The position numbers and the translations under genes were made by a program. A stretch of 64,000 bases of DNA from Streptomyces sp. G44. Its GTDB lineage: Bacteria; Actinomycetota; Actinomycetes; Streptomycetales; Streptomycetaceae. The DNA lies in the NCBI RefSeq assembly GCF_016905445.1, contig NZ_JAFEXF010000008.1, positions 1-64,000 of the forward strand, written 5' to 3'. The stretch's first letter is position 1; every line of letters begins with the position of its first letter. Positions 50,672-59,166 of the stretch are shown in pieces. The notes below the pieces were generated by a model. It ran no database searches and had not been told where the DNA came from. It saw nothing but the letters and a program-made list of their open reading frames with translations.

Positions 50672-51478
50672 CTACTTGCCCGTGAACTTCTCGTACTCCT
50701 TGATGACCTCGTCGGTCGGGCCGTCCATACGCAGCTCGCCGCGCTCCAGCCAGAGCACGCGGTCACAGGTGTCACGGATCGACTTGTTGTTGTGGCTGAC
50801 GAGGAAGACCGTGCCGGCCTCCTTGCGCAGCTCCCGGATGCGGGCCTCGGAGCGCTTCTGGAACTTGCGGTCGCCGGTGGCGAGCGCCTCGTCGATCATC
50901 AGGACGTCGTGGTCCTTGGCCGCGGCGATGGAGAACCGCAGGCGGGCCGCCATGCCGGAGGAGTACGTCCGCATCGGCAGGGTGATGAAGTCGCCCTTCT
51001 CGTTGATGCCGGAGAAGTCGACGATCTCCTGGTAGCGCTCCCTGATCTGCTCGCGGGACATGCCCATCGCGAGCCCGCCGAGGATGACGTTGCGCTCACC
51101 CGTCAGGTCGTTCATCAGGGCCGCGTTCACGCCGAGCAGCGAGGGCTGGCCGTCGGTGTAGACCTTGCCCTGCTCGGCGGGGAGCAGGCCCGCGATGGCG
51201 CGCAGCAGGGTCGACTTGCCCGAGCCGTTCGAACCGATCAGGCCGATCGCCTCACCCCGGTAGGCGGTGAAGCTGACGCCGCGCACCGCGTGCACCTTGC
51301 GTACACCGCGCTCCTCGCCGCGCCGGAGGATGCGGCTCAGCGCGGAGGTGGCGCTGCCCTTGCCCGTCTTCGCGCCGTTGACGCGGTAGACGATGTGCAG
51401 CTCGTCGGCGATGACGGTGGGGATGTGCGCCCGGGACGCTTCGGGAGCCTTGTCGGGGGTCGTCTTGTCGTCAGCCAC
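50672..51478 (-). CDS. ABC-2 polysaccharide exporter ATPase (Wzt/TagH-like)
   Basis: A 268-residue ATPase of the ABCB-type capsule/teichoic-acid exporter group. Walker A is IGLIGSNGSGKSTLLRAIAG, the signature is YSSGMAARLRFSIA, and Walker B is DVLMIDEALATGDRKFQK, followed by the His-loop LVSHNNKSIRDTCDRVLWLE. The N-terminal part has the LSRILRRGEERGVRKVHAVR segment typical of TagH/Wzt. GTG 51478 overlaps the permease stop by eight bases. It should power export of a glycan or lipid-linked polymer with the next gene. Confidence 0.95.
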   Translation of the reverse strand: MADDKTTPDKAPEASRAHIPTVIADELHIVYRVNGAKTGKGSATSALSRILRRGEERGVRKVHAVRGVSFTAYRGEAIGLIGSNGSGKSTLLRAIAGLLPAEQGKVYTDGQPSLLGVNAALMNDLTGERNVILGGLAMGMSREQIRERYQEIVDFSGINEKGDFITLPMRTYSSGMAARLRFSIAAAKDHDVLMIDEALATGDRKFQKRSEARIRELRKEAGTVFLVSHNNKSIRDTCDRVLWLERGELRMDGPTDEVIKEYEKFTGK

Positions 51479-52415
51479 GGCCGTACCGCTCCTCAGCCTT
51501 CCAGAAGTACACGAAGCCGCCGACCGCGAGCAGCACGGCCCAGCCCGCCGCGATGGCCCAGGCCCACTGTCCCATCGGCAGGTACTTCTCGCCGTAACCG
51601 TCGATCAGCGCGAACCGCATCAGGTCCATGTAGATGGCGGCCGGGTTCCACTGGAGCACGTCCGCGATCCAGGCCGGCTTGCCCTCCAGCATGACCGGGA
51701 TGGAGAACATCACGCCGGACGCGTACATCCACGTACGCATCACGAACGGCATCAGCTGCGCGAGGTCGGGGGTCTTGCTGCCCAGCCTGGCCATGATCAT
51801 CGCGAGGCCGGTGTTGAAGAAGAACTGGAGCACCAGGACCGGGACGATCAGGAGCCACGACAGCTTCGGGTAGCTGCCGAAGCCGATCGTGATGACGAAC
51901 AGCACGATCATCGAGAAGAGCAGCTGCTGGAGCTGCTGGAGCGAGAACGAGACCGGCAGCGAGGCGCGCGGGAAGTGCAGCGCGCGCACCAGGCCGAGGT
52001 TGCCCGAGATCGACCGGACGCCCGCCATCACCGAGCTCTGCGTGAAGGTGAAGACGAAGACGCCCGTGACGAGGAACGGGATGTAGACCTCGCGCTCGAA
52101 GCCCCGGTCGGCCTCCAGGATCAGGCCGAAGATCAGGAAGTAGACGAGCGCGTTCAGAAGCGGCGTCGCCACCTGCCACAGCTGGCCCAGCTTGGCCTGG
52201 CTGTACTGGGCGGTGAGCTTGGCCTGGGAGAAGGCGACGATGAAGTGGCGCCGTCCCCAGAGCTGGCGGACGTACTCGAAAAGTCCGGGCCGTGCGCCGC
52301 TGACGGTCAGACCGTACTTGGCGGCGAGTTCGGCGCGGGAGAGCCCGTCATCGGGCGGCGGTGTCGACGGGGATGCTGTCACCGCGACTCCGCCGTCATG
52401 CGTTGTCTCACTCAC
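51471..52415 (-). CDS. ABC-2 polysaccharide exporter permease (Wzm/TagG-like)
   Basis: A 314-residue permease with about six membrane helices after an N-terminal cytoplasmic region: GQLWQVATPLLNALVYFLIF, IPFLVTGVFVFTFTQS, FSMIVLFVITIGFGSY, LLIVPVLVLQFFF, FVMRTWMYASGVMFSI and AWAIAAGWAVLLAVGGFVYF. The LWGRRHFIVAFSQAKLTAQY block marks TagG/Wzm permeases. Start GTG 52415. It should export the product made by the upstream cluster. The gap to the glycosyltransferase is 95 bases. Confidence 0.94.
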   Translation of the reverse strand: MSETTHDGGVAVTASPSTPPPDDGLSRAELAAKYGLTVSGARPGLFEYVRQLWGRRHFIVAFSQAKLTAQYSQAKLGQLWQVATPLLNALVYFLIFGLILEADRGFEREVYIPFLVTGVFVFTFTQSSVMAGVRSISGNLGLVRALHFPRASLPVSFSLQQLQQLLFSMIVLFVITIGFGSYPKLSWLLIVPVLVLQFFFNTGLAMIMARLGSKTPDLAQLMPFVMRTWMYASGVMFSIPVMLEGKPAWIADVLQWNPAAIYMDLMRFALIDGYGEKYLPMGQWAWAIAAGWAVLLAVGGFVYFWKAEERYGRG

Positions 52416-52510
52416 GAGTGGAAACTTTCGTCTTCAGAAGCGCAGCCGGTCGGGCGTAGGCCTGGGCCAGGGACCGGGGTATGGCCCAGATGGTCTCAGA
52501 TCCGAGCCTG

Positions 52511-53404
52511 TCAGATGACAGGAGGTCGGCCCAGTCGCGTCAGCCGCCACACCGTACGCCACCTCATGGGCGTACGCGGGCCGCACGGCGTCGTCCAGCC
52601 CTCCTTGAAGCCGCCGAACCAGGCCTTCAGGGCCGGCCCCGAGGGGCGTCGGGCGAGGGTGAGCAGCATCCAGACGCCCAGGTAGACCGGGACGAGCGGC
52701 GCGGGGAGGTTGCGCCGGGCCAGCCAGACGCGGTTGCGGGCCACCATGCGGTGGTAGACCGCGTGCCGGGAGGGGGCGGTCGTCGGGTGCAGGAGCACCA
52801 TGTCGGACCGGTAGTCGATCATCCAGCCCGCGTCGAGGGCGCGCCAGGCGAGGTCGGTCTCCTCGTGGGCGTAGAAGAACTCGCCGGGCAGCGGGCCGAC
52901 CTCGGCGACGACCTTCGTGCGGACGGCGTTGGCGCCGCCGAGGAACGTCGTCACGCGCGAGGAGCGCATCGGGTCGGAGGCCCGCAGCCGCGGCACGTGG
53001 CGCCGCTGGGTCTCGCCGGTGTCCGGGTCGGCGATGCGGAAGCTGACGATGCCGAGCCGCGGGTCGGCGGCGAAGGCCTCGCGGCACAGCTGGGCCGTGT
53101 CCGTGTTCGCCAGCAGGCCGTCGTCGTCCAGGAAGAGCAGGATGTCGACGTCGGTGCCGCCGGGGCCGAACGCCTCGATGCCGACGTTGCGGCCGCCGGG
53201 GATGCCGAGGTTCTCGGGCAGCTCGACGGTGCGTACGCCTTCGGGCACCTCGGGGACGGGGGCGCCGTTGCCGACCACGACCACCTCGACCGGGTCGCCG
53301 TCCTGCTTGGCGACCGAGTCGAGGAGGGCGCGCAGCTCCTGGGGCCGGTTGCCCATCGTGATGATGACGGCGCCGACCTTCAGCTCATGTGCCGGGGTGC
53401 TCAC
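52511..53404 (-). CDS. Family 2 glycosyltransferase
   Basis: A 297-residue GT-A glycosyltransferase. Pattern: VGAVIITMGNRPQELRALLD, VVVVGNGAPVPEVPEGVR, LGIPGGRNVGIEAFGPG, and LLFLDDDGLLANTD with the DxD-like metal site, then FFYAHEETDLAWRALDAGW. It would add a sugar to the exported lipid or polymer. GTG 53404 overlaps the CDP-alcohol phosphotransferase stop by four bases (GTGA). The sugar donor is unknown; galE nearby offers UDP-galactose. Confidence 0.92.
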   Translation of the reverse strand: MSTPAHELKVGAVIITMGNRPQELRALLDSVAKQDGDPVEVVVVGNGAPVPEVPEGVRTVELPENLGIPGGRNVGIEAFGPGGTDVDILLFLDDDGLLANTDTAQLCREAFAADPRLGIVSFRIADPDTGETQRRHVPRLRASDPMRSSRVTTFLGGANAVRTKVVAEVGPLPGEFFYAHEETDLAWRALDAGWMIDYRSDMVLLHPTTAPSRHAVYHRMVARNRVWLARRNLPAPLVPVYLGVWMLLTLARRPSGPALKAWFGGFKEGWTTPCGPRTPMRWRTVWRLTRLGRPPVI

Positions 53405-54180
53405 TTCAACCTGCTCGATACGAGGATGGACACGAGGTGGAGCAGGGTCTGGAGCATCGCGATGCCCGCGAGGACCGCGACACCGACGCGCGAGAAGAAC
53501 AGGTCGCCCCGGGCCTGGTCGACGATGGCGAGGACCAGGATCAGCAGCGACGCCTCGACGCCGAGGATCAGCCGGTGGAACTTCAGCGCGGCGGCGGCCC
53601 TGCGGGCCAGGGCCATGCCGGAGGAGCGCGGCTCGGACGCCGACTCCTTGACCGGTTCCTTGCCCGTCTGGTGGCGGGCGACGCCGACCAGGTCGGTCTC
53701 GGCCTTGATCAGGATCGCGCCGAGGGCGGCCAGGGTGCCGAGGAAGGCCCACAGCCAGTCGATGCGTCCGCTGCCCCACAGGTCGGCGGCGCGCAGGCCG
53801 AAGCCGACCAGGACCGCGGCGTCGCACAGGTAGGCGGCGACGCGGTCGAGGTAGACGCCCGCCATCGAGTACTGCTTCTTCCAGCGCGCGATCTCGCCGT
53901 CGACGCAGTCGAGCAGCAGGTAGAGCTGGACGGCGAGCACGCCGAGCACGGCGCCCGTGATGCCGGGCACCAGCAGGGCCGGGGCGGCGAGGGCGCCGGC
54001 GACGGTCATCACGTAGGTCAGCTGGTTGGGCGTGACCCGCGTGTTCACCAGGTGCCGGTCGATGCGCAGGGAGACCTCGCGCATGTAGAGCCGGCCGGCC
54101 CAGTGTTCGCCGCTGCGCCGGTCCTTCACCCCCGGCGGGTGGACGACCGGGCGGAGCTCAGCTACCGATGGCTTGTGCAT
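53401..54180 (-). CDS. CDP-alcohol phosphatidyltransferase-like protein with altered motif
   Basis: A 259-residue integral membrane protein with the CDP-alcohol phosphotransferase fold (about six helices). The motif reads D91-CV-D94-G95-EI-A98-R99, then G108 and D112, but the position of the fourth Asp (116) is Ala (DRVAAYLC). That Asp is the proposed catalytic base of the family, so it may be inactive, use another base, or be a non-canonical subtype. It overlaps the dehydrogenase gene by 23 bases. It should sit in the membrane and act on a CDP-linked polyol made next door. Confidence 0.88.
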   Translation of the reverse strand: MHKPSVAELRPVVHPPGVKDRRSGEHWAGRLYMREVSLRIDRHLVNTRVTPNQLTYVMTVAGALAAPALLVPGITGAVLGVLAVQLYLLLDCVDGEIARWKKQYSMAGVYLDRVAAYLCDAAVLVGFGLRAADLWGSGRIDWLWAFLGTLAALGAILIKAETDLVGVARHQTGKEPVKESASEPRSSGMALARRAAAALKFHRLILGVEASLLILVLAIVDQARGDLFFSRVGVAVLAGIAMLQTLLHLVSILVSSRLK

Positions 54181-55222
54181 AGTCGGCGTATGCGTCCCTG
54201 ATCTGGTCGGTGGACAGGTCGAGGTGTTCCAGGATCGTGTAGCGGCCCGGGCGGGTCTGCGGAGCGAACTCCACGACCTTCACGAACTCGTCCACGGTGA
54301 AGCCGATCTCCTCCGGCAGCACGGGCAGGCCGTGGCGGCGCAGCACCTGGGCCATGTACGCGGACTCCTCGCGGGCACCGCGCAGGTGCATCGCGAAGGC
54401 CGCGCCGAGGCCGCACTGCTCGCCGTGGCTGGCGGCGCGCTTGGGGTAGAGGAGGTCGAAGGCGTGGTTGATCTCGTGGCAGGCGCCGGACGCCGGGCGG
54501 GAGTCGCCCGACACGGACATCGCGATGCCGGTGAGGACCAGGCCTTCGGCGAGGACCTGGAGGAAACCGTCGTCGCCCACCCCGCCGGGGTGGCGCAGGA
54601 CGGCCTCGCCCGCCTGGCGGGCCATAGCGGCCGCCAGGCCGTCTATGTCCTCGCCGCGTTCGCGGGCGGCCAGCTCCCAGTCCCGGATCGCCGAGATGTT
54701 GGAGAGGGCGTCGCCGATGCCGGAGCGGACGAAGCGGACGGGCGCCTCACGGATCACGTCGAGGTCGATGACGACCGCGATGGGGTTGGGCACGCCGTAC
54801 GAGCCGCGGCCCGCGTCGTTGTCGAGGGTCGCGACGGGCGAGCAGAGGCCGTCGTGCGACAGGTTCGTCGCGACGGCGACCAGCGGCAGGCCCACGCGCG
54901 CCGCGGCGAACTTGGCGCAGTCGATGATCTTGCCGCCGCCGAGGCCGACGACCGCGTCGTAGCGGCCCTTCTTCATGGCGTCGGCGAGCTTGATGGCGTC
55001 ATCGAGGGTGCCGCCGCCGACCTCGAACCACTCGGCGCCGGGCAGCGACGGCATGAGGCGGTCGCGCAGGACCGCACCGGAGCCACCGCTGATGGCGATG
55101 GCGAGCTTGCCGGTCGACGAGCAGATCCGCTGGTCGGCGAGGACACCGGCCAGGTCGTTGAGCGCCCCCGGCCGGATGTCGACGACGACCGGCGAGGGGA
55201 TGAGCCTCGTCAGTACTGGCAC
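54158..55222 (-). CDS. Iron-containing alcohol dehydrogenase, glycerol-1-phosphate dehydrogenase-like
   Basis: A 354-residue NAD(P)-dependent dehydrogenase of the iron-containing/G1PDH (EgsA/AraM-like) group. NAD-binding loop AVVGLGGGKIIDCAKFAAAR; metal ligands in CHEINHAFDLLY and ASHGEQCGLGAAFAMH; plus VATNLSHDGLCSPVATLDND, the block shared with archaeal glycerol-1-phosphate dehydrogenase. It could reduce dihydroxyacetone phosphate to sn-glycerol 1-phosphate, rare in bacteria. Start GTG 55222 overlaps the cytidylyltransferase gene by 13 bases; no ATG fits. Confidence 0.88.
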   Translation of the reverse strand: MPVLTRLIPSPVVVDIRPGALNDLAGVLADQRICSSTGKLAIAISGGSGAVLRDRLMPSLPGAEWFEVGGGTLDDAIKLADAMKKGRYDAVVGLGGGKIIDCAKFAAARVGLPLVAVATNLSHDGLCSPVATLDNDAGRGSYGVPNPIAVVIDLDVIREAPVRFVRSGIGDALSNISAIRDWELAARERGEDIDGLAAAMARQAGEAVLRHPGGVGDDGFLQVLAEGLVLTGIAMSVSGDSRPASGACHEINHAFDLLYPKRAASHGEQCGLGAAFAMHLRGAREESAYMAQVLRRHGLPVLPEEIGFTVDEFVKVVEFAPQTRPGRYTILEHLDLSTDQIRDAYADYAQAIGS

Positions 55223-55947
55223 GCGATCTCCCGGCCCTTGGCGAGGTCGTCGTGGTTGTCGATCTCGACCCACTTGACGTCGCCGATCGGGGCCACGTCG
55301 ACCTTGAAGCCGCGGTTGACGAGCTCCTGGTAGCCGTCCTCGTAGTAGAGGTCGGGGTCGCGCTCGAAGGTGGTCTTCAGCGCGTCGGCCAGCTCCTCGG
55401 CGGCGGAGCCCTCGATGAGGGTGACGCCGATGTACTCGCCGGTGGCCTCGGAGGGGTCCATCAGCTTGGTGATGCGCTGGACGCCCTTGGCGTCGTCGAC
55501 GATGACCTTCATCTCCTCGTCGGCGAGCTGCTTCACCGTGTCGAGGGCGAGGATGATCTTCTGGCCGTTGCCGCGGGCGGCGAGCAGCGTCTTCTCGACG
55601 GAGACCGGGTGCACGGTGTCGCCGTTGGCGAGGATCACGTCGTGCTTGATGGCGTCACGGCCGCACCACAGGGAGTAGGCGTTGTTCCACTCCTCGGCCT
55701 TGTCGTTGTCGATCAGCGTCAGCTTGAGGCCGTACTTCGCCTCCAGGGCCGCCTTGCGCTCGTAGACGGCCTCCTTCTTGTAGCCGACGATGATCGCGAC
55801 CTCGGTCAGACCGATCTCGGCGAAGTTGCCGAGCGTCAGGTCGAGGATGGTCGTGTCGCCGTCGACGGGCACCAGGGCCTTGGGCAGGGTGTCCGTGTAA
55901 GGGCGAAGACGGCGTCCGGCGCCGGCCGCCAGCACGAGGCCGATCAT
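55210..55947 (-). CDS. Nucleotidyltransferase (phosphocholine cytidylyltransferase-like)
   Basis: A 245-residue sugar-phosphate/phosphocholine nucleotidyltransferase. N-terminal signature GLVLAAGAGRRLRPYTDTLP with KALVPVDGDTTILDLTL; IIVGYKKEAVYERKAA; ANGDTVHPVSVEKTLL; VKWVEIDNHDDLAKGREIAC. The family uses CTP (LicC-type) or other NTPs. In this context it should make a CDP-polyol, such as CDP-glycerol, as donor for the two CDP-alcohol phosphotransferases. Its ATG overlaps the upstream gene by four bases (ATGA). Confidence 0.9.
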   Translation of the reverse strand: MIGLVLAAGAGRRLRPYTDTLPKALVPVDGDTTILDLTLGNFAEIGLTEVAIIVGYKKEAVYERKAALEAKYGLKLTLIDNDKAEEWNNAYSLWCGRDAIKHDVILANGDTVHPVSVEKTLLAARGNGQKIILALDTVKQLADEEMKVIVDDAKGVQRITKLMDPSEATGEYIGVTLIEGSAAEELADALKTTFERDPDLYYEDGYQELVNRGFKVDVAPIGDVKWVEIDNHDDLAKGREIACQY

Positions 55948-57731
55948 GCGGGTTCTCCTTCATCGTGTACGGCGGGTGCGCCGCGCTTGTGAGCGGTCAC
56001 CCAGAAGTGGATGCTCTCGACGAGCACCACGAGTGCCACGGCCACGGCGAGTGCCGTGAGCGCGACGGTGAAATCTGTGGCGGGCAGCAGGGCCGCTGCC
56101 AGCGCGACCACGAGGACCCTGCCCTCCTGGCCGCCGATCGCGCGCACCAGCCAGGCCGGCGGCGCGCCGGTACCGCCCTTGATGCGGTACACCGTGTCGT
56201 AGTGATGGTAGGCGACCGCGGCCACCAGTCCGAAAGCCGCCGGAAGCGCTCCGTTCACGTCCGCTTTGGCCGCCAGGACCAGGATCGTGCCGTACTCGGC
56301 GGCGCGGAAGAACGGCGGGACCAGCCAGTCCAGGGGGGCCTTGAGGGGCATGACCAGGGCGAGGCCCGACAGGGCGATGTACAGCGCGGCGGCGGCCACG
56401 ACCACGGGGCCGCCGTAGGAGTTGCCCAGCGCCGTGCCGACGAGCCCGGCGCCGCCGGCGAAGGCGAGCACCGGGGCGGGCCGCAGCCAGGTCACCCGTG
56501 GCGTGAGGGCGGAGAACGCCGAGGCCAGGGGACCGTTGTCCGCGAGGTCGGCCAGCGCCGTCGCGGCGCGGTCGGTGCGGGTGGCCTTGCGGGTCAGCGA
56601 GCGCAGGACACGCCCGGCGGTGGTGTAGCAGGCCGCGAGCGCGCAGCCGATGAGCAGGACGACGAGGGTGACGCGCGGGGTGGTGACCGCGGTGAGCGCG
56701 GCGATCAGCGCCCAGCGCTCGCCGATGGGCAGCACGATCATCCGGCGTACCCACACCGTCCAGCCGACGCTGTCGAGCTTGTCGGAGAGGGCGGCGGTGG
56801 GGCTGGTGTTGGCGGTGGCGTCGTGGTTCGCCTCGTTGAAGGAGAAGTCCACGACGTGCCGGCAGGTCTGGAGCACCATCGCGCCGAGCGCCAGTGCCCA
56901 CACGTCGTCGCCACCGCGGGCCGCGCCGAGTGCGAGCCCCGCGTAGTAGGCGTACTCCTTGGCCCGGTCGAACGTGGCGTCGAGCCAGGCGCCGAGCGTC
57001 GAGTACTGCAAGGAGTAGCGGGCGAGCTGCCCGTCGGTGCAGTCCAGGACGAAGGAGAGGATCAGCAGCAGACCGGCGGCGACGAAGCCGCCGCGCGTCC
57101 CGGTCGCCGCGCAGCCCGCCGCGATCAGGGCGGTGAGCAGCGAGACGGTGGTGACCTGGTTGGGGGTCAGGCCCCGGCGGGCGCACCAGCGGGCGATGTA
57201 GCGGGAGTACGGCGAGATGCAGTACGTCGTGAAGAAGCCGTCCCGCGACTTGACCGCGGTGCGCAGGCGCACGGCCTCGTCGTCGACGGCGGCGACGGCC
57301 CGGCGTGCTTCGTCGCGGGTCTGGGGGTCGGTGGGGACGGTGGCGACGAGGGCGCCGAGTTCGGGGCGGTGCACGTCCGTCGCCGCCGACTCCATGGCGG
57401 CCGCGATGCCGTCCGGGAGCGGGGCCGCGGTCCCGGCGCCCGTCCGCAGCGCGCGGGTGAGGGCCGTGCGGGCCTCCGGCTTGGCGGTGACGGCGCCGGG
57501 TACCGCCGAGGCGGCGAAGCGGGGGTCGGTGAGCGCCAGGCGCAGTGCGTGGACGTGACCGACGAAGCGCGCGTCGACGACGGCGACGCGCTGGTCACCC
57601 GGCACGGCGGCGAGCAGCGTCTCGGCGTCCGCCGCGTCGGAGGCGACCCGCACGTCGAAGCCGAGGGACCGCAGATCGCCTTCGAGCGGCGACCCGGGGA
57701 CCGGCTGACCGGTGAGGATGGCGGTCGACAG
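55944..57731 (-). CDS. DUF5941/CDP-alcohol phosphatidyltransferase membrane protein (CTG start)
   Basis: A 595-residue membrane protein. Residues 1-190 are a soluble, degenerate nucleotidyltransferase-like part. A canonical CDP-alcohol motif follows: D230-CT-D233-G234, A237, R238, G247, D251 and D255. A DUF5941-type membrane C-terminus with several helices ends it. The reading frame begins after a TGA three codons before CTG 57731, which has AAGGAG about 9 bases upstream and matches the STAILTG start I recall from homologs; the first ATG/GTG start would lose 26 conserved residues. It is the first gene of the export cluster, about 120 bases from the PHO-box-like repeat. Confidence 0.85.
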   Translation of the reverse strand: MSTAILTGQPVPGSPLEGDLRSLGFDVRVASDAADAETLLAAVPGDQRVAVVDARFVGHVHALRLALTDPRFAASAVPGAVTAKPEARTALTRALRTGAGTAAPLPDGIAAAMESAATDVHRPELGALVATVPTDPQTRDEARRAVAAVDDEAVRLRTAVKSRDGFFTTYCISPYSRYIARWCARRGLTPNQVTTVSLLTALIAAGCAATGTRGGFVAAGLLLILSFVLDCTDGQLARYSLQYSTLGAWLDATFDRAKEYAYYAGLALGAARGGDDVWALALGAMVLQTCRHVVDFSFNEANHDATANTSPTAALSDKLDSVGWTVWVRRMIVLPIGERWALIAALTAVTTPRVTLVVLLIGCALAACYTTAGRVLRSLTRKATRTDRAATALADLADNGPLASAFSALTPRVTWLRPAPVLAFAGGAGLVGTALGNSYGGPVVVAAAALYIALSGLALVMPLKAPLDWLVPPFFRAAEYGTILVLAAKADVNGALPAAFGLVAAVAYHHYDTVYRIKGGTGAPPAWLVRAIGGQEGRVLVVALAAALLPATDFTVALTALAVAVALVVLVESIHFWVTAHKRGAPAVHDEGEPA

Positions 57732-57850
57732 ACGAACTCACTCCTTGATTCCCGGCGCGGCTCGCGCCGGGCACGTGCGTAAGGGGGGCGCCCCTGGCAC
57801 GGCGGCCGGGCGGCACGTCGGCAGAGGCTATCGGATGATGAGAAGCGGGC

Positions 57851-57872
57851 GTTCACCGCCCGTTCACGCCCC
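57851..57872. promoter_or_regulatory. PHO-box-like direct repeat
   Basis: GTTCACCGCCC (57851-57861) is followed directly by GTTCACGCCCC (57862-57872). This is two 11-base units whose first seven bases fit the Streptomyces PhoP half-site GTTCACC. It lies in the 266-base divergent gap between the CDP-alcohol cluster (start 57731) and galE (start 57998). The rest of that gap shows nothing certain. Confidence 0.6.
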
Positions 57873-57997
57873 GATAAGGGCGGCCTGCGAGGGCCTCGGC
57901 CTGCGCGATCATCATGGTGGATGGGGGCCCGCCCCTCCAAACCGCGCCCGGATCGCGCCCGGCTTGCCCCCATAGCGTTCGCTTAGGGTGGGCGTCC

Positions 57998-58981
57998 ATG
58001 ACATGGCTGATCACCGGCGGGGCCGGATACATCGGGGCACATGTGGTGCGGATCATGGCCGGCGCCGGTCAGGACGTCGTCGTCCTGGACGACATCTCCT
58101 CGGGGGTGCCGCGGCGGCTGCCCGCGGAGGTCCCGCTCGTCAGGGGTTCCTCGCTCGACGGGGAGCTGCTGCGCCGCGTCCTCGCCGAGTACGGCGTCAC
58201 GGGGGTGGTGCATCTCGCGGCCCGGAAGCAGGTCGCGGAGTCCGTGGCGCAGCCGCTGCGCTACTACCGGGAGAACGTGGGCGGCCTGGTGACGCTGCTC
58301 GGCGCGGTGGCCGAGGCGGGGGTGCGGCGGTTCGTCTTCTCCTCGTCGGCCGCGGTGTACGGCGATCCGCCGGACGTCCACCTCGTCGGTGAGGACACGC
58401 CGTGCGCTCCCGTCAGCCCGTACGGCGAGACGAAGCTGGCCGGGGAGTGGCTGGTGCGGGCGGCCGGGCGGGCGCACGGCATCGGGACGGTGTGCCTGCG
58501 CTACTTCAACGTGGCGGGCGCCGCGGCCCCCGAGCTCGCGGACACCGGGGTCTACAACGTCATCCCGATGGTCTTCGACCGCCTCTCCCGCGGCGAGCCG
58601 CCGCGGATCTTCGGCGACACCCATCCGACGCCGGACGGCACGTGCGTACGCGACTACGTCCATGTGGCCGATCTCGCGGAGGCGCATCTGGCGGCGGCCC
58701 GGCGGCTCGCGGGCGGGGCCGCGGGTGACCTGACGGTGAACATCGGCCGCGGCGAGGGTGTTTCCGTACGCGAATTGGTCGACCTCGTCGGCGAGGTGAG
58801 CGGTGACCGCCGTCCGGCGCTGGTCGAGCCGGCCCGTGCCGGTGACGCGCCGCGGGCCGTGGCCGACGCGCGGCTGGCCGCCGAGGAGCTGGGCTGGACG
58901 GCGCGGCGCGGGGTGCGCGAGATGGTCGAGTCGGCGTGGGCGGGGTGGTGCCTGCACCGTCCTCCGGCCCGCCGCGACTGA
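57998..58981 (+). CDS. galE: NAD-dependent epimerase, UDP-glucose 4-epimerase-like
   Basis: A 327-residue short-chain dehydrogenase/reductase. Rossmann motif TGGAGYIGAHVVRIMAG; VVHLAARKQVAESVAQPLRY; FSSSAAVYGDPP supplies the Ser, and VSPYGETKLAGEWLVR the Tyr and Lys of the catalytic triad; LRYFNVAGAA and GTCVRDYVHVADLAEAH follow. UDP-glucose/UDP-galactose interconversion is likely. Divergent from the DUF5941 gene, it could supply UDP-galactose to the exported glycan. Length agrees with GalE. Confidence 0.9.
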   Translation: MTWLITGGAGYIGAHVVRIMAGAGQDVVVLDDISSGVPRRLPAEVPLVRGSSLDGELLRRVLAEYGVTGVVHLAARKQVAESVAQPLRYYRENVGGLVTLLGAVAEAGVRRFVFSSSAAVYGDPPDVHLVGEDTPCAPVSPYGETKLAGEWLVRAAGRAHGIGTVCLRYFNVAGAAAPELADTGVYNVIPMVFDRLSRGEPPRIFGDTHPTPDGTCVRDYVHVADLAEAHLAAARRLAGGAAGDLTVNIGRGEGVSVRELVDLVGEVSGDRRPALVEPARAGDAPRAVADARLAAEELGWTARRGVREMVESAWAGWCLHRPPARRD

Positions 58982-58985
58982 CCGT

Positions 58986-58999
58986 CCCCTCGTGAGGGG
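58986..58999. terminator. Short hairpin after galE
   Basis: CCCCTC (58986-58991), GT, GAGGGG (58994-58999). It lies just five bases after the galE stop and could serve as its terminator. The stem is short and there is no U-run. Confidence 0.4.
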
Positions 59000-59025
59000 C
59001 CCTGACCTGCGCGCCTTCCCCAGAC

Positions 59026-59038
59026 GGCAATCGTTGCC
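59026..59038. promoter_or_regulatory. Palindrome upstream of the cation efflux gene
   Basis: GGCAA-TCG-TTGCC (59026-59038) is a perfect 13-base dyad about 130 bases before the CDF gene. A second CGTTGCCA copy lies near 59083. These could be metalloregulator (ArsR- or Zur-type) sites, but I cannot match a known consensus. Confidence 0.35.
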
Positions 59039-59166
59039 ATTTTCGCAGGTCAGGGAGATGACAACGGTGTTCAGTGCCGCGTTGCCAGATACCCCCCACC
59101 CGTAGTTCACTGTGGTCGCGCGAGGACCGAACAGCAGACCGATGACCGACGCGGGAGGCGGGCTCC

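Follow-up and report, generated by a model that had tools for sequence, protein, structure and literature searches.

In Streptomyces, PHO boxes consist of direct-repeat units with a GTTCACC core and an 11-nt period (PMC6988585, PMC4415409), and the pstS and pitH2 genes of S. coelicolor or S. lividans are reported to be activated by PhoP (PMC7866108). A Pho box that overlaps the -35 element has been termed a repressor position (PMC7244524). Wall-polymer genes have been placed under PhoP control in both directions: in B. subtilis, phosphorylated PhoP represses the tagAB and tagDEF teichoic acid genes on starvation (PMC4415409, citing Liu 1998), and in S. coelicolor the SCO4873-4882 cluster, which directs a phosphate-free wall polymer, is PhoP-activated (PMC2824715, PMC2267785). 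The portions of the published Streptomyces accounts available to us name no operon that is turned off in exchange for the phosphate-free polymer. SCO6753 of S. coelicolor was reported as a PhoP target in a phosphate-depletion series, with a significant alteration in the phoP knock-out and strong PHO-box or dyad evidence (PMC4173021).

The stretch of DNA analysed here, 64,000 nt from Streptomyces sp. G44 (the window), contains a minus-strand operon of seven genes. The first (55944..57731) encodes a CDP-alcohol phosphotransferase with a C-terminal DUF5941 domain (Pfam PF01066 and PF19365); judged by reading frame and conservation it starts with CTG in this strain, about 62% of relatives using TTG, and an almost invariant AAGGAGTGAGTTCG-like stretch (57731-57747) precedes this apparent start. 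It is followed by a LicC/IPCT-like nucleotidyltransferase (55210..55947; PF00483, all NCBIfam models below cut-off), which matched the CTP:phosphocholine cytidylyltransferase structure 1jyk at 3e-13, and by a glycerol-1-phosphate dehydrogenase-like protein (54158..55222; PF13685), whose open reading frame reaches 55273 and whose start was set by eye at the GTG at 55222. The latter scored 231 bits against NF002022, below the cut-off of 413, and matched the solved glycerol-1-phosphate (G1P) dehydrogenases 4rfl, 4rgq and 5fb3. The remaining genes encode a second CDP-alcohol phosphotransferase (53401..54180; PF01066, DIPPS/AIPS-like but below cut-offs), a family 2 glycosyltransferase (52511..53827; PF00535), a Wzm/TagG-like ABC-2 permease (51471..52415; PF01061, below the cut-off of the NCBIfam polysaccharide-export permeases) and a TagH-like ABC ATPase (50672..51478; PF00005, 183 bits against NF010066 with a cut-off of 320). 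Phytoene/squalene-synthase genes of the hopanoid type lie downstream of the operon.

Like the B. subtilis tag genes, this operon includes a TagGH-like exporter; the ATPase matched TagH (7dd0) at 2e-54 as well as TarH (6jbh) and is accompanied by the ABC-2 permease, although the NCBIfam scores of the pair fall below their cut-offs. The Pfam matches of the seven proteins included no CDP-glycerol glycerophosphotransferase of the TagB/TagF type; the operon has CDP-alcohol phosphotransferases instead. A neighbourhood of crtB, tagH, tagG, araM, a CDP-alcohol phosphotransferase, a GT2 glycosyltransferase and a nucleotidyltransferase has been associated with teichoic acid biosynthesis (PMC13118837). 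The enzyme families suggest that the operon's product may be a phosphate-rich polymer. Across 50672-57731 a TagGH-like exporter is encoded together with a G1P dehydrogenase-like protein, a LicC/IPCT-like nucleotidyltransferase and a pair of DIPPS-like CDP-alcohol phosphotransferases; what this combination would make is not obvious.

Inspection of the window revealed two 11-nt repeats on the plus strand at 57851-57872, GTTCACCGCCC followed by GTTCACGCCCC. Unit 1 (57851..57857), the operon-proximal one, is GTTCACC and reads GGTGAAC in the direction of the minus-strand genes; unit 2 (57862..57868), GTTCACG, is spaced exactly 11 nt from it. Unit 1 thus agrees with the GTTCACC core at all seven letters and unit 2 at six of seven, giving the at least two direct repeats at 11-nt spacing that define a PHO-box core. 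A weak third unit, GATAAGG (57873..57879), was recognised from column conservation across 79 distinct regions, the commonest form in relatives being GATCAAC. The 22-mer comprising both repeats occurs as a single copy in the genome.

In order to gauge how unusual such a site is, exact copies of GTTCAC-N5-GTTCAC were counted in the 8.37-Mb genome; three were found against 0.28 expected from base composition on the 12 fixed letters of the motif, and the chance expectation within the 267-nt gap is about 9e-6. With one mismatch allowed, 29 sites were found where about 13 are expected; comparison of the two excesses indicates that loose matches are largely noise and exact ones are not. The second exact site lies upstream of pstS (PstS by TIGR00975, 269 bits, cut-off 205) and the third upstream of a Pit-type phosphate transporter (PF01384), and a PhoX phosphatase gene is preceded by a one-mismatch site. 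Since the only other exact sites of the genome mark PstS and Pit, this internal calibration argues that the box at 57851-57872 is of the PhoP type; with its GTTCACC units, 11-nt period and identical exact core it resembles the Streptomyces pstS, pitH2 and phosphatase boxes. Ten of 13 Streptomyces genomes searched, including this one, yielded 22 exact sites, whose neighbours were typed by tblastn and profile matches; 15 adjoin PstS (7), Pit (3), PhoX (1) or DUF5941 (4), and seven have no Pho-gene assignment. As a caution, the scanned phoU/phoR gap gave only weak units and no pair scoring at least 12 of 14. The NeuB region of the same genome (33 kb of contig C399), scanned in search of a counterpart of SCO4873-4882, gave weak matches and no convincing box. 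The two-unit, 11-base repeat claimed in the earlier note is therefore borne out: both repeats are where they were said to be, and the exact motif is not a product of chance.

Repeats of similar period are also read by other regulators, and we considered it very improbable that MtrA, GlnR, AfsQ1 or AfsR owns the site. MtrA has an 11-nt period and reported targets that include phoA and phoP, but its consensus, GTAACC-N5-GTAACC (PMC12323332), is absent from the box, mismatching it at positions 3-5, where unit 1 carries T, C and A in 94-97% of cases. AfsR binds several PHO boxes, and its sites overlap them with a one-letter preference (PMC6988585), such that the sequence alone does not separate AfsR from PhoP at these repeats. 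The GlnR and AfsQ1 half-site is GTnAC. Like the MtrA consensus, this half-site disagrees with the repeats.

The relatives found with the locus are Streptomyces. To follow the box through evolution, 191 homologous gaps were assembled, 159 from Streptomyces and 32 from other genera of the family: 110 loci were collected with the DUF5941 protein (30, including our own, plus 80), four with a primer sequence, 40 from more distant Streptomyces and 37 from a family survey that supplied the 32 other-genus regions. A two-unit score of at least 12 of 14 was reached by 39/79 and 63/80 Streptomyces regions and by 12/32 regions from other genera, compared with 5 of 955 random first-order Markov sequences. 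When regions were anchored on the predicted -10 element of the operon, the box was kept (a score of 10 or more out of 14 at the constant offset) in 164 of 181; ten of the 191 lacked a recognisable -10 and were left out, and 17 of the 181 scored below 10. The Streptomyces sets overlap (L040 and L114 are alike), and the 164 regions correspond to 149 distinct 65-mers. Unit 1 is perfect (7/7) in 148 of the 164, and across the 181 anchored regions its positions are conserved at 91-97%; in unit 2, GTT (positions 1-3) is conserved at 86-94% and positions 4-7 are looser. The third unit has at least four of seven letters in 87 of the 164.

The conserved -10 element also indicates to which gene the box belongs. 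It lies in a conserved TATCGGAT, which reads ATCCGATAGCCT on the minus strand. Of the 169 regions left after 22 of the 191 had failed a looser score and position filter, 163 have the TATC of this element at offset -22 relative to unit 1; from this fixed offset, and from the conserved block at 57808-57836, TAGCCT at 57825..57830 on the minus strand is the predicted -10 hexamer of the DUF5941 operon, with transcription predicted to start near 57818. Unit 1 and this hexamer are separated by 20 nt. By contrast, the box stands at varying distances from the DUF5941 start codon, mostly 85 to 155 nt, and the start codons on the two sides of the divergent gap are 247 to 497 nt apart among loci. The fixed -10 spacing, maintained while the start-codon distance varies, argues that the box belongs to the DUF5941 operon and not to galE.

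On the other side of the gap, galE (57998..58981, plus strand; TIGR01179, 304 bits, cut-off 262) is divergent in 85 of the 110 loci and is followed in the window by zitB on the plus strand; zitB stands directly in its place in the other 25, indicating that the genus has seen gain or loss of galE. The box is in forward orientation relative to these genes, as would be expected if it served galE, or zitB where galE is absent. Its spacing to the plus-strand gene is variable while that to the minus-strand -10 is fixed, however, all 164 regions are devoid of a TANNNT on this side at gaps 0-58 from unit 2, and the box is kept whether galE or zitB comes next. We regard service to the plus-strand gene as extremely improbable; galE itself, probably not a target, was discarded because of the variable spacing and the missing -10 at the allowed gaps. 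The box does lie in the divergent gap, as had been claimed, but it is tied to the minus-strand operon's promoter and is not shared evenly between the two sides. A second conserved block, CGATCATCAT..GGAT plus a CCACAAACC-like element, is present at 57906-57943 with or without galE; it keeps a looser distance from the operon -10 than the PHO box does.

The same fixed spacing, together with the stronger conservation of unit 1 than of unit 2, would also be expected if unit 1, read as GGTGAAC, were simply a -35 of unusual or ECF type within the promoter and unit 2 were secondary. This explanation is highly improbable, given that GTT of unit 2 is held at 86-94% exactly 11 nt away, that a perfect 14/14 pair occurs in 5 of the 32 other-genus regions, and that the same exact pair marks PstS and Pit elsewhere. 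Unit 1 persists in several regions where unit 2 has decayed (L175, L181, L186 and L200), suggesting that it may have an additional role. Taken together, the sequence comparisons make it very probable that the box is a PhoP operator of the DUF5941 operon.

Relative to the predicted start, the box spans roughly -33 to -54, extending to -61 when the third unit is counted. A 17-18 nt spacer would place the -35 hexamer on 57848-57854, and so the box overlaps the -35 zone; a promoter scan found no strong -35 or sigma-70-like pair at the operon promoter. In order to gain insight into the sign of control, the orientation of the box was compared with that of boxes at phosphate genes. All 12 boxes at PstS, Pit and PhoX (three in this genome, nine in others) face their gene, and the sole TANNNT of the scanned stretch lies 9 nt (three sites) or 31 nt (nine sites) after unit 2, whereas all four exact DUF5941 boxes face away from the operon, the box here being reversed and 20 nt from its -10; the forward, 9-or-31-nt geometry of the activated promoters is thus lacking at DUF5941. 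The comparison gives a figure of 0.0005 which, the genomes being related, is not an independent-sample probability. The 164 anchored regions are also reversed, but by construction of the count. The reversed placement over the -35 zone, unlike the arrangement at PstS, Pit and PhoX and coinciding with the published repressor position (PMC7244524), suggests repression; provided that the box is a PhoP operator of this operon, we consider repression by PhoP fairly likely. One reservation is that unit 1 could at the same time act as part of the promoter.

Several features would instead fit activation, in which the reversed box replaces the missing -35 and more of the exported product is made under starvation. 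The lack of a good -35 hexamer is expected of activator-dependent promoters and so counts against repression, as does the helical phase, which is that of the activated promoters (20 = 9+11); the box abuts as well as overlaps the -35 zone, and SCO6753 is one of the phoP-linked targets of a depletion series, many of whose targets rise (PMC4173021). Set against this, none of the 12 boxes at PstS, Pit and PhoX is reversed, all being forward at 9 or 31 nt, and boosting a phosphate-consuming pathway in starvation would be physiologically odd. Activation is accordingly possible but, in our estimation, unlikely.

Repression would proceed as follows. When phosphate is exhausted, phosphorylated PhoP would bind the head-to-tail repeats near -33 to -54 (to -61); the bound protein would hinder RNA polymerase at the -35 zone and the operon would be turned down, which would spare phosphate from an exported glycerol- or alditol-phosphate-containing polymer. 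As a whole, this explanation, a PhoP operator that turns the seven-gene operon off under phosphate starvation, has in our view a somewhat better than even chance of being correct.

The counterpart region of S. coelicolor bears on this proposal. There, zitB is SCO6751, SCO6750 is isopentenyl-diphosphate isomerase and the hopanoid genes are SCO6759-6771; the flanking numbers leave room for seven genes, so that SCO6752-6758 would be those of the operon, and SCO6753 would by gene order be the counterpart of gene 2 (55210..55947). Relatives that lack galE at the locus and carry the S. coelicolor primer sequence also exist. The available text on SCO6753 (PMC4173021) differs from the present analysis in giving the gene without box position, orientation, sign or conservation analysis. 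Phosphate control of this wall-polymer pathway is plausible and fits the reported phoP-mutant effect on SCO6753; of the phosphate-controlled switch on a phosphate-rich polymer pathway proposed in the earlier note, the PhoP-type box stands, on its PstS and Pit company and its family-wide conservation, while the switch itself is only plausible. The note gave no direction of control and did not mention the reversed placement over the -35 zone, from which repression is suggested here.

A separate element lies between galE and zitB, where a Zur-box-like TGACAACGGTGTTCA with TTGCCA 8 nt on precedes zitB (58982-59166); the zitB promoter here resembles the zinc-induced zitB promoter of S. coelicolor (PMC5472717). 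A Zur footprint reaching the PHO box was initially suggested by a primer of that study whose sequence lies in the corresponding gap of relatives. Such cross-talk was dropped, as the Zur-box-like sequence stands right before zitB and the primer lies an estimated ~170-220 nt upstream of the zitB transcription start.

With respect to what was known, the box is a further Pho-regulon operator, foreshadowed in S. coelicolor; its reversed, promoter-locked geometry and possible shut-off role are what set it apart. Its identity as a PhoP-type operator is well supported by these sequence analyses, negative control is the more likely sign, and a phosphate-rich polymer is a putative product. The operon would share with SCO4873-4882 the presence of wall-polymer genes in the Pho regulon, but that cluster is activated and phosphate-free, and the DUF5941 operon would be the opposite arm. 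We tentatively suggest, as a rather speculative joint reading, that it may supply the phosphate-rich half so far missing from a teichoic-type exchange in Streptomyces, with phosphorylated PhoP turning it off through the reversed box at the -35 zone and turning SCO4873-4882 on, and that the CDP-alcohol phosphotransferases may make an exported polymer of sn-glycerol-1-phosphate, the archaeal enantiomer. Were this true, the sign of PhoP control could be read off from the direction of a box, under the proposed rule that a forward box at 9 or 31 nt activates and a reversed box at 20 nt represses. The conserved, promoter-fixed, reversed box supplies a specific candidate for the shut-off arm of the polymer exchange, and it ties an unusual G1P-dehydrogenase/CDP-alcohol/TagGH operon, apparently not yet characterised, to a growth state in which its product could be sought.
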